NCBI RefSeq assembly: GCF_048128805.1
Contig: NC_136008.1
Coordinates: 13,315,572 to 13,379,571, forward strand
DNA from: Centroberyx gerrardi
Taxonomy: Eukaryota > Chordata > Actinopteri > Beryciformes > Berycidae
Direction of reading: 5' to 3'
DNA: 64,000 bases
Position 1 is the first letter of the stretch, and every line of letters starts with the position of its first letter. A program made the position numbers and the translations under genes. The notes beneath the pieces are model-generated. The model saw only the letters and a program-made list of their open reading frames with translations, had not been told where the DNA came from and ran no database searches. Positions 39,977 to 50,207 of the stretch are shown piece after piece.

Positions 39977-42900
39977 ATGGACCAGAGAGTGAAGGGGGGT
40001 ACCCCTCCAACCTCACACACCCCCCTGGCCCCCACCTCTCCACCTGAAGACTCAGAACAGGAACAAGTGGCGGAGATAAGGAGGAGGGGCGAGGGCGAGA
40101 ATGGAGACTTAGGGAAGAGAGAGGAGGAGAGAAGAGGAGCAGGGAGGAAGAAAGAAGGAGACAAAGGGGCAGTGCTGGAGCTGCTCATCGAGGGCCGCTG
40201 TGGAAGCGCAGGGCAGCAACAGCTTCAGTTCCCTGGCAGAGAGGCTAGCTGCCCTGATGGGAATGTACGACTCCGGATCGGACTCCAGGCCAAACGGACC
40301 AAGAAACCGCCCAAGATTCTGGAGAGCTATGTCTGCAAGCCCACCTTCAGGACCTATCAGAGACAGGGCAGGGGGGGGGTGCTGAGGGGGGACGGAGAGG
40401 GAGGAGTGGGCCAGCAGGGCAAAACCAGCCCCACACCAGAAGAGGCATCCAGAGAGCAAAGCTCAGGGTTGGATCCTGTCCAGAGCCAGTCCAGACAAAC
40501 TGCATCTACCGCTTCACCAGCGCTGTCATCATCGTCGTTGTCGTCATCGGCATTGCAGCCACTTCCTACAGCTTCCAGCCCAGCCTCAGCCCCTGCCCTC
40601 GCCAGCCCAGGGACCAAGTCAGCCAAACAGGTAAGGACAAGGGCATTTGCCTTACACACACACACACAAACAGCTGCCATTATTAAACCCACTATTATTT
40701 GAAGTTAACTCAAAATGGAAAAAAACCTGGGGGGAGAAGGGAAAACATAATGACTGAAGGTATTCATAATCACATAGTAATACATTATTAATGGCACATA
40801 TGTGGTGTAGCTCTGTTTTGGTTTTCGTAGTCAACCACCAGACAGGCTTATCTGGTGCAAAATTATCCAGCTTTGTGCTCAGTGGTAATAAGGTCAAATG
40901 AGCTATTGTCTCAATACTGAAACCTAAGCAGCACATTTGAGTAAACAGACCTATAAATAGGACAACAGCACAGCAACTACTAGGAGCTGTTACAGACATT
41001 GGTTCATCAGTCCTTATGACAATCACCCAAGGGGAAGCTTATTGCTTTAGCTGCAAAAACGCCACTCAAGCTGCAGCATTCCAAAATTACAGGACAAGCA
41101 CGAAATGTCAAGCCTTCTCATCTCTATTAGTGGCAATTTATAGCTACCAATAGCACAGCTTTCTCCCTCTCTATCTCTGTCCCTCTCTTCTATTTTTACA
41201 TCCCCTCTTTTCTCTACCTGCTCTCATTTATCTTTCACTCCCCCTCTCTCTCTCTGTCCCACTCCCTTTCTCTCTCAGTTTCTCTGCCTTTGTATTTCTC
41301 CTTTCTGTGTCAACCCCATTCCTGTTTCCATCACCTCACTCTCTCCTTCTCCTCACTATGCCCTCCTTTCTCTCCCTGATTGAGTCATTTTGTCCTCAAT
41401 CTCTCTTTTAATGGTCAGACAAAAACAAAAGCATTTAAGTTGTTGTGTTTTCCCCGAGTGCCATTGTCCTTTATTGTTATCAGCAGCAAACTAATAGATA
41501 TCACAGCCATTGTTGTCTATGACAGAGATTGCCTGTTTGCGCCCTCCAGGTTCCTATCAAACTGGCTGATAAGACAGAGGTGAATTCAAATGGCTCATCT
41601 GAGAAAGTGAAGAGAGAGAAGCTTCCTAGTGTCAATGGCCAGCCAGTCCCTGCAGGACACAAACCCTCCTCCCCTAAAACAGACCAGACAGCTCCCACTA
41701 CTCCCTCCACACCATCCCTCCAAACCCCGTCAGCAGGGGAACCCAGGAGTGAGGGAGACACCCCTAACAAACATAATGGTTTGGTGCAGACAGGGAGACA
41801 GAAGGGACTGTCAAATGGGAAAGGCTCCGCCGATGTCCTTGGCCCTACCAAGTCCACTAAGGTCAAAGTTGGAAAACACAGCAGTTCCTCCTCTGCTTCT
41901 CCCAGAGACATGGACTCTGCAACAAGACCCCCAGTCTCTGGCAGCTCCCATAAAGAACACAGCCTCTCCCATAAGAGTAGGACAGATTCTCCTTCCTCTC
42001 CCTCCGTCACCCCTAAACCACACTCCTCCCCTTCTGTGTCTCTCTCCTCTGGCCACTCCCCAAAACAGGATCCTTCTCTACAGCCCTCACTAGAAAAGAA
42101 GAGAGAGAAAGAGAAGAAAGCAAAGAAAGAGAAACGGAAAGAGAAAAAATCCAAGCGAGATAGAGGCGAGGCTGAAAGAGCAAAGAGTGAGAGCAGGAAG
42201 GAGGAAGGCAAGAAGAAGAAGAAAGAGAAAGGGAAGGAGGGGAAATCGAGGCATGGAAAAGGCAAGGATGAAAGAGGCAGGATTGATGATACATGGAGGG
42301 ATGAAGCAGAGAAGATTGAGAGAGGAAAGGCTGAGAAAAAGAGGGATAAGCTTAGCCCAGAAAGACACAGAGCAAAAGATGACAACGCTAAACCTGGTGA
42401 AACAGATGATAGTGGTAAACTAGATAAGACCTGTAAACTACCGAACCCAGGCAGACCAGATGAGAGAGACAAGGCAGATGATACTTGCCAGCCAGTTAAA
42501 CATGCCGAACCAGCAACAACAGGTGACACTAGTAAATCTAAAGAACAAGACGTCCCATCAAAACATCCGACTGTGCCTCCAAGCCACCCCTCTTCTGCTC
42601 CTCCCTCTCTCCCTGCTCTTTCTGCTCGCTCCCCCATCTCTCCCCCTTCTTCACCCCCAGAGCAGGACAGCCGACCGCTCAAGAAGCGTAAAGCCAGACG
42701 GCCCAGCTGGACCAAGCTGGTGCACCGGGCTCAGAGGGTGGAAAACCAGGAAGCCTCTGTAGATTCCCACCATAATCCATTACTAAGTTTCCCCCAGAAC
42801 TCCAAGACGTGCCTCCCTACCAAGGCCACTATCCCGCAGGCAGATGAGTCACACCCAACCCCCTCTATCTCCTCCACCAGCAGCTCCTCCGCTCTTCCTT

Positions 42901-48900: not shown

Positions 48901-50207
48901 GCTGTGCCCATACTAATCGTAACTAAAACTTACATGCATCCCTCCATTCGCTTCTTTTCAGGAGGAGAGCTCTAGCGACATTACCAGCCTCTTTCCTCAC
49001 CTCGACATGGATCCTTTGACCAGCAGTGAGAGGTATGGAAAGAACACGCACCCATTTACATTTCGAGCTAAACTATTGGATGCGCTAACACTGTTCTAAT
49101 GTCTATGGTAATGGCTAATGTTTCTCTCTGTGTGCCGGCCAGGAGCTTTGTGGTGAAGCACCATGTGTTCCTGGTGAGGAACTGGGAGCTGGTGAGAGAT
49201 AGACAGATCCAACTGAGGATAGAGAGGGAGAGGGAGAGAGAGAGAGAGGCAGAAGGAGAGGAGAGGGACACGCGGCATCTGTCCTGTGATGGAGCCAATG
49301 GGGACGACAGCCACATCAAGTCAGGTCCATGAAGCAAGTGTGTGTGTTAGTTTTTGTTTCTGTAGGTGTTTGTGTATGTATACGTGTATGCGGTTGAACT
49401 GTATACATTTTCATTTCTACTGTACATCTATATGGATGTCTTTTTGTGTCCTGTGTGTGTGCGTCTTTGTTTTTTGTGTGTGCATGTACTGTATATGTGC
49501 GTGTGTTGGTGTTCTGCTTACTGCCCGTTGTCCTCATATTTGGCTTGTCTCTCCATATCATACTCAGCAGTATAAACTAAGTGGTTTTCCAACCACAGAC
49601 TTTCAGCCTGCAGAAATGTTTCCCCATTTCTGTCATCTGCTACTGGTGTCCAAGAACCCAGCAGGAATCAGCTTTCCCCATTAACAATAAAACCACACTG
49701 TTTCCATCAAAGAGTCCCTGACTGATCACAGATAGAAGAGGGGAAATAAGGACACACACACATACACACACTTACAAATAGAATTGAACGGTCCTGCTGT
49801 GATCCCTTCCCTCCTGTACTGCCATCATTAACATATACTGTGTGACCTTTGACCCTCAGATCAGCCAGTGGGGGTGGAGGAGATGGTCATCAGCAGTGAC
49901 CCCCACTGTCAGACTCAGGACACCTCCAGCCCTCGCACTGCCAGCCCCCATGTGAGTACATGCTGAAAAAATGCAACATTTCCCACAGAAAATAAATGTC
50001 TTTTCTTTTAGCGATTCAATTTTCCACACGGATGGAAATCTGCAACTGCATTTAGTCCTGCATATTTGTTCACCACAGCCTACCAAAACCCAGAATAGAC
50101 AAGAGGAGGAAAGAGAGGAAGAAAAAAGAGGGGAAGAAGAGGTTTGCAGCAGAGAATTGAGGAGGAAACGGCTGAATGACTTACTCCTGACCCTGCAACA
50201 TTCATAA
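39977..50207 (+). CDS. ash1l: ASH1L-like chromatin protein lacking SET, bromo, PHD and BAH domains
   Basis: Full-length ASH1L is a nuclear Trithorax-group H3K36 methyltransferase. This copy lacks the catalytic part. Exons: 39977-40630, 41550-45729, 47296-47647, 47847-48020, 48117-48211, 48324-48397, 48632-48677, 48821-48861, 48962-49032, 49143-49324, 49860-49951, 50079-50207. Phases agree and give 2,029 residues; human is about 2,970. Conserved pieces include [14 protein letters not shown] near the N-terminus and four AT-hooks ([35 protein letters not shown]). Also kept are [22 protein letters not shown] and the pre-AWS segment [11 protein letters not shown] (about 1827-1837). Next come the linker [14 protein letters not shown] and a C-terminal basic helix ending in [12 protein letters not shown]. 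The AWS-SET-post-SET block would fall between 48677 and 48821, and the bromo-PHD-BAH block between 49324 and 49860. Neither is present. A Lys/Glu-rich tract replaces the mammalian GLVNKD-type repeats. Order with dap3 and rusc1 matches human, so this is a true ASH1L relative. Confidence 0.9.
40631..41549 (+). other. ash1l: ash1l intron between first and second coding exons
   Basis: No exon seen. Pyrimidine-rich from 41160 to 41370, with acceptor CCCTCCAG before 41550. Confidence 0.6.
45730..47295 (+). other. ash1l: ash1l intron after the large exon
   Basis: No exon recognised on reading all frames. In human ASH1L a conserved Lys-rich segment (ILATKKNLDHVNKILKAKK) precedes the fourth AT-hook. 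It is not found here. Confidence 0.55.

Follow-up and report, generated by a model that had tools for sequence, protein, structure and literature searches.

An intact ash1l paralogue of euteleost fishes without its methyltransferase and histone-reading domains, a candidate docking platform for MRG15 and RBBP4/7

Introduction

What remains of a methyltransferase gene once the methyltransferase has gone, and what may the remainder still do? This question is raised by a 64-kb stretch of contig C12 of the fish Centroberyx gerrardi (order Beryciformes), called the window below, which carries a copy of ash1l with neither the SET domain nor the histone-reading domains of ASH1L, an autism-linked chromatin enzyme (PMC8213741). 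An earlier note on this DNA had described a non-catalytic, AT-hook-bearing ASH1L and supposed that a full-length paralogue was kept after a duplication; a complete copy on contig C19, double synteny, a separate SET-less clade and 77 SET-less relatives now uphold that description. The gene is best described as an ancient ASH1L duplicate cut down to its docking part. On sequence grounds we lean, with modest confidence, to the view that this second copy of ash1l, derived from a duplicated segment, would be a DNA-tethered docking platform without catalysis for MRG15 and RBBP4/7, modulating full-length Ash1l.

Results

An intact twelve-exon gene

The exon model, rebuilt by script, has 12 coding exons at 39977-50207 (+) with every intron GT..AG, and the spliced coding sequence of 6,090 nt consists of 2,029 codons and TAA without any internal stop. 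Exon number, span and codon count are as the earlier note had given them, and the spliced product is identical at every residue to P0001, isoform X1 of LOC139908882 from the same species, which is annotated as an uncharacterized protein. The parts of the gene are as follows.

39977..50207 (+), entire coding region of this SET-less ash1l, 12 coding exons, 2,029 codons and stop
39977..40630 (+), exon 1, holding the conserved N-terminal motif from residue 95 (exon model, conservation scoring, alignment)
41550..45729 (+), exon 2, 4,180 nt (exon model)
47296..47647 (+), exon 3, with two AT-hook-like cores inside (exon model)
47847..48020 (+), exon 4 (exon model)
48117..48211 (+), exon 5 (exon model)
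48324..48397 (+), exon 6, with the FxLP motif FQLP at 48353-48364 (exon model, alignment, match to ASH1L chains)
48632..48677 (+), exon 7, QPAVP (proline pair aligned to the pair behind FxLP in ASH1L)
48678..48820 (+), 143-bp intron E7-E8, site of the missing AWS, SET and most post-SET exons (exon model against the C19 copy)
48821..48861 (+), exon 8, with RLKEK, probably left over from the 3' part of the post-SET exon (place and frame only; tblastn E 5.0)
48962..49032 (+), exon 9, linker (matched by the C19 exon preceding the Caf1-motif exon)
49028..49191 (+), Caf1/RBBP4-binding motif, residues 1895-1912, split by the E9/E10 intron (alignment against the published motif)
49143..49324 (+), exon 10 (exon model)
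49325..49859 (+), intron E10-E11, site of the missing bromodomain, PHD and BAH exons (exon model, tblastn)
49860..49951 (+), exon 11 (exon model)
50079..50207 (+), exon 12 and stop, tail similar to the full-length ASH1L C-terminus (exon model, hhalign)

Conserved ASH1L segments had been said to run from the N-terminus to a C-terminal linker. The segments are there, but the last part is not just linker, as exon 8 is a probable post-SET remnant, exons 9 and 10 hold the Caf1-binding motif and exon 12 is like the ASH1L C-terminus. A search of the window against Rfam at gathering scores gave no match.

A complete second copy and a duplicated segment

The genome search that had been suggested for a second ash1l with SET, made here with the ASH1L C-terminus, found a complete ash1l at C19:17191778-17207215 (-). 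The query was partly mixed with the letters of the window, and 47 of 85 candidates were scored, with 37 matches. Two of the matches fell at the window copy, and we attribute the weaker ones elsewhere to other genes with SET, bromodomain or BAH domains.

On both C12 and C19, ash1l has an rnf115-like gene (RING domain) upstream and an rps27-like gene (S27e domain) downstream, with like orientation, and this double conserved synteny indicates that the two copies arose by duplication of a single segment, most likely in the teleost genome duplication. The RUN/SH3 neighbour of the window copy gave no match in the 160 kb of C19 compared.

19297..24335 (+), flanking RING-finger gene, which we take to be rnf115-like (RING domain; its paralogue adjoins the C19 ash1l)
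55650..61888, limits approximate (-), tail-to-tail neighbour, presumably rusc1-like (RUN and SH3 domains)

When the C12 copy is aligned with the C19 copy, the amino acid is the same at 443 of 935 codons, and 136 of 215 fourfold sites differ. The ratio of nonsynonymous to synonymous change (NG86 estimates 0.49 and 2.7) is saturated, and only fourfold sites against amino-acid identity are usable for this pair. Separately, the impression that the SET-less copy is nearer to human ASH1L than the C19 copy is around exons 4-6 was rejected: in the human query used, about the first 75 residues were mixed with window letters, and the sea lion row is like the full-length fish rows there.

Loss of the enzyme and reader blocks

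The absence of the domains was examined by tblastn (E <= 10) with the ASH1L of Diretmus (P0168), taken from 39 residues behind the FxLP start to the protein end. At C19, as a positive control, this query recovered the exons encoding AWS, SET, post-SET, bromodomain, PHD, BAH and the tail. Over the whole window it gave 19 matches, namely exons 9 and 10 (E 4.6e-10) and 17 others at E 0.26-8.6, which are chance or low complexity except for a six-residue match at exon 8, GRLKEK (E 5.0). AWS, SET, bromodomain, PHD and BAH thus found no match anywhere in the 64 kb, and the earlier statement that these domains and the post-SET are lacking is borne out for the window. In agreement with this, no Pfam family was detected at E <= 0.1 in four of four SET-less proteins, whereas SET, AWS, bromodomain, PHD_5 and BAH were all detected in both full-length control proteins.

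The deletions can be placed by comparison with C19. The catalytic block would have stood in the 143-bp E7-E8 intron, where about 3.7 kb separates the matching exons at C19, and the reader block in the E10-E11 intron. Exon 8 is probably what is left of the post-SET exon, judging from its place, its frame and GRLKEK. At the far end, the exon 12 tails align with full-length ASH1L tails at an hhalign probability of 86.8, with an acidic stretch within the alignment (of the tails chosen, the selection pattern caught 28 of 30 from SET-less and 21 of 24 from full-length proteins, and the rest were dropped).

The homologue set comprised 487 proteins at E <= 0.001, and the counts of SET-less relatives given here refer to the best 120 of these, 77 of which lack any precomputed Pfam domain (SET-less) and 43 of which have SET. 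Signature strings for SET, bromodomain, PHD and BAH occur in none of the 77 SET-less rows, and the SET string occurs in all 43 remaining rows. Both the FxLP motif and the Arg of the Caf1 motif are readable in 75 of the 77, at a spacing of 63-116 residues (median 75), and every SET-less row has at most 140 residues behind that Arg, which leaves too little room for the missing blocks. These figures bear on an assembly gap or misjoin that hides SET exons at the window locus, which the earlier note had named among the findings that could overturn its account. No support for it was found, although the searched genome is a single assembly; the window is free of N, and the short spacing recurs in the 75 relatives just mentioned. 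Because SET-lessness is common to relatives of several orders, we regard a gap as extremely improbable. A splice artefact was likewise considered and rejected.

Spread and age among fishes

Among the SET-less rows are perch-like fishes, Lota, Merluccius, Lampris, Aplochiton and, from the pike-salmonid group, Esox, Dallia, Umbra and Salvelinus, and the compact layout from FxLP to the Caf1 motif is common to pike, salmonid, galaxiid and neoteleost relatives. The set includes short or partial models (1,149-1,589 aa), and the tail is readable in 54 of the 77; the Lampris model (P0076) stops just past exon 7 and covers the FxLP part only, and that of Aplochiton (P0071) stops in exon 10. Many rows of 1,300-1,400 aa from the source 'lgn', about the size of exon 2 alone, were counted neither as SET-less genes nor as transcripts. 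Among the best 120 of each of two listings, Otocephala, Elopomorpha and Osteoglossomorpha contributed no named SET-less row, and such proteins may still exist.

A tree was built by a quick method from 15 of the 77 SET-less proteins, 23 full-length teleost proteins and 4 outgroup proteins over 1,404 shared columns. The SET-less rows form one clade (SH-like approximate likelihood ratio, SH-aLRT, 100), broadly in species order, and the full-length euteleost rows group with full-length Otocephala (100). A single clade of SET-less and full-length euteleost proteins was rejected by the approximately unbiased (AU) test (p 0.0061), which was run after the tree had been seen and in the presence of a long SET-less stem. 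The basal fork is without resolution, and a clade of SET-less proteins with Megalops, Scleropages and Arapaima has a support of only 67, so that the complete gene of these three fishes is at most a possible true orthologue of the window copy. Warnings concern long end branches (SET-less Hippocampus, Eucyclogobius and Lota; full-length Paramormyrops) and unusual letter composition (four SET-less rows and two others). Subject to the caution called for by the long stem, the duplication would be older than the split of Otocephala and Euteleostei, and the domain losses would predate the split between the pike-salmonid group and the sampled neoteleosts. The tree does not prove that the duplication was that of the teleost genome, although this is the most economical reading.

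One full-length row behaved unexpectedly. P0204, labelled Lepidogalaxias salamandroides, groups with Gadus on short branches (support 100), a placement that we take to be odd for the Lepidogalaxias lineage, and it is possibly a mislabelled assembly.

The FxLP and Caf1-binding motifs and their conservation

Over the 77 SET-less proteins, the commonest letter of a column has an average share of 0.749. This share reaches 0.936 in the FxLP exon, 0.926 in the N-terminal motif and 0.872 in the stretch with the Caf1 motif, and is only 0.57 in exons 11 and 12, which are absent from many models. The FxLP motif itself (FQLP) is invariant in all 77, including two goby rows (FQLPYE). MRG15 binds FxLP of ASH1L and activates the enzyme (PMC5963871; PMC8106495), and the prolines beside FxLP are implicated in ASH1L switching (PMC8106495). 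Exons 5-7 match 6ine_A (E 1.2e-18) and exons 6-7 match 6ago_A (E 7.9e-13), the ASH1L chains of the ASH1L-MRG15 crystal complexes 6INE and 6AGO (PMC8106495), and QPAVP in exon 7 is the counterpart of those prolines. MRG-domain genes are present in the Centroberyx gerrardi genome.

The second docking motif is preserved except at one key residue, K1608. Caf1 binds a short ASH1 motif behind SET, near the histone-binding domains, and its binding is abolished when E1591 or R1604 is changed to Ala (PMC10148413). Six of the seven key residues (E/D, V/I, F, L, R, N) are kept in all 74 readable SET-less rows, the other 3 being gapped; V1595 is Ile in one row.

Could the gene nevertheless be a pseudogene in decay, still open in Centroberyx gerrardi by chance? 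Its long stem branch and its possible absence from some families, judged by eye on the rows listed, would fit such a decay. However, neither frame breaks nor lost splice sites were found in the 12-exon model, FQLP is invariant among 77 listed homologues, which are themselves open gene models, and the amino acid is kept in 443 of 935 codons of the C19 comparison while synonymous change is saturated, with 136 of 215 fourfold sites differing. Relatives also contain long frames on short contigs, of 2,026 aa on 6,680 nt in P0002 and 1,966 aa on 7,725 nt in P0026 (both from 'lgn'); since the gene has introns, frames of these lengths fit spliced transcripts. We therefore consider decay highly improbable, and the earlier judgement that this is no pseudogene stands on the intact exons and the 77 homologues.

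AT-hook-like cores and a cysteine-rich stretch

Five cores that we take to be AT-hook-like remain in the SET-less copy, and two cysteine features set it apart from full-length proteins.

42987..43010 (+), AT-hook-like core RKRGRPKS, residue 698 (alignment)
43164..43187 (+), AT-hook-like core RKRGRPPK, residue 757 (alignment)
43527..43550 (+), AT-hook-like core KRRGRKPK, residue 878 (alignment)
47373-47396 (+), AT-hook-like core RRPGRPRK, exon 3 (alignment)
47598-47621 (+), AT-hook-like core RKRGRKRK, exon 3 (alignment)
44271..44327 (+), Cys-rich stretch, residues 1126-1144 (its first six Cys fall in columns where all 23 full-length teleost proteins used for the tree have gaps)
44724..44732 (+), CGC, residues 1277-1279 (Cys at both positions in all 77 SET-less proteins; Arg, within the AT-hook-like KKRGRPPK, in all 23 full-length ones)

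The Cys-rich stretch and CGC may together form a new metal-binding module. In another account, the function retained lies in the N-terminal half, including the Cys-rich stretch, and the binding of MRG15 and RBBP4 is secondary or altered. Several blocks of exon 2 are as conserved as the FxLP exon (0.990 at residues 868-882 and 0.979 at 1231-1245), Cys 1277 and Cys 1279 never vary where all 23 full-length rows have Arg, the Cys-rich stretch is not in the full-length rows shown, and PMC11883000 describes the N-terminal 2,000 residues as a region for which information is lacking. What this account leaves unexplained is the in-frame survival of FxLP in 77 of 77 rows and of the six Caf1 residues in 74 of 74 on either side of the deletion, and several of the cysteines are absent in pike and salmonids, which also speaks against it. 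We judge it unlikely, and retain docking of MRG15 and RBBP4/7 as the preferred explanation.

Other features of the window and genome

Three further genes were recognised in the window by their domains; their names are partly tentative and their limits are approximate.

about 3000-12400 (+), VWA-domain gene, presumably integrin-alpha-like
about 15400-18200 (-), presumably polr3c
26450-29513 (-), glycosyl hydrolase 30 gene, presumably gba1-like

At 56100-56400, a stretch of about 120 bp that contains 'aggccaatcagtgtaatttgtgaggatagctgg' was seen by eye to be present in two tandem copies. Elsewhere in the genome, more than 100 near-identical open SET frames of 144 aa lie in dense arrays and in both orientations at C21:19.7-20.6 Mb and C25:6 kb-0.77 Mb (150 matches listed of 282 candidates). 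These arrays are a strongly amplified SET-domain gene, which we guess may be kmt5a-like.

Discussion

How would such a protein act? The AT hooks would tether it to DNA, FxLP would hold MRG15 (Morf4l1) and the Caf1-binding motif would hold RBBP4/7, as Ash1 does in the AMC complex, while the protein would neither methylate lysine 36 of histone H3 (H3K36) nor possess a histone-reading domain of its own. The likeliest effect would be competition with full-length Ash1l for RBBP4/7 and for MRG15, the partner that activates the enzyme on binding, and Ash1l activity could be lowered or re-sited as the outcome. The earlier note had suggested a competitor or scaffold; either role would now have FxLP and the Caf1-binding motif as its concrete anatomy.

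A close second to competition is that the protein may be no competitor, and may act as a methylation-independent scaffold that aids transcription together with full-length Ash1l. Taken alone we find this somewhat unlikely. In its favour, the five AT-hook-like cores are kept, and flies can live without the SET domain: ASH1 lacking it rescues the null to about 50%, and the study argues that ASH1 has essential functions distinct from methylation (PMC8426247). On the other hand, the readers and BAH are gone from the fish copy, and the fly protein without BAH lost null rescue after one AT-hook mutation (PMC8426247).

Several observations weigh against a tethered docking platform as we propose it. 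In the fly, the AT hooks matter most jointly with BAH (PMC8426247), the domain that the fish copy lacks. One AT-hook-like core of full-length ASH1L, KKRGRPPK, has become RRQCGCPSK in the SET-less proteins, with both Cys in 77 of 77. The docking motifs themselves are not untouched: 66 of the 77 rows have His or Asn directly before FxLP, E1591 of the Caf1 motif is Asp in 5 rows, and its seventh key residue, K1608, is Lys in none of the 74. The stem of the SET-less clade, at 0.95 changes per column, is a long branch; this points to an early phase in which constraint was relaxed or altered, and such branches can also distort a tree. Finally, no named cichlid or pufferfish was seen by eye among the SET-less rows listed, and the gene may be dispensable in places.

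Comparison with known systems shows what is shared and what is not. With ASH1L/Ash1, the trithorax-group H3K36 methyltransferase that is an AMC subunit alongside MRG15 and Caf1/RBBP4, the fish copy shares the matching exons around exons 6, 9 and 10, the N-terminal motif, the AT-hook-like cores, FxLP, the Caf1 motif and the C-terminal tail; it differs in lacking AWS, SET, post-SET, bromodomain, PHD and BAH, in its extra Cys-rich stretch, in the change of one core to CGC and in the loss of K1608. Laboratory fly ASH1 lacking SET still acts in vivo, which is a likeness, but the fly proteins lacking SET or BAH are engineered single-domain deletions, whereas the fish protein is a natural paralogue without all of these domains (PMC8426247). 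The predicted human ASH1L isoform X6 (P0233, 1,726 aa) is also an ASH1L product without SET, but it is a predicted splice form that ends before FxLP and not a separate gene. The trypanosome prozyme reportedly keeps its enzyme fold. It resembles the fish copy as a catalysis-free duplicate beside an autoinhibited enzyme, but it activates its partner, whereas the fish copy has had the whole catalytic fold deleted and the docking motifs kept (PMC5201418).

No title on a second or SET-less fish ash1l was found among the open-access papers searched, which is no proof of absence, and excerpts of a zebrafish SET survey and a tilapia bromodomain survey name only ash1l. Surveys keyed on SET or bromodomains would overlook the SET-less paralogue. 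The names histone-lysine N-methyltransferase ASH1L and ASH1L-like are also attached to dozens of database entries that encode no methyltransferase domain.

Work in flies points to SET-independent roles of ASH1 (PMC8426247), and fish evolution has itself made the domain deletion and kept it across several orders. SET-independent ASH1 function could be tested in medaka or killifish, which have the SET-less entries P0065 and P0047. As a tentative proposal to which we give less than even credence, euteleosts may have a dedicated catalysis-free Ash1l, from which just the enzyme and reader blocks were removed while both AMC docking motifs were kept and a Cys-rich module was newly gained, and which would naturally titrate MRG15 and RBBP4/7 and thereby tune the methylation of H3K36. 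If this is true, the docking part of ASH1 would have been under selection for a function of its own since before the pike-perch split.

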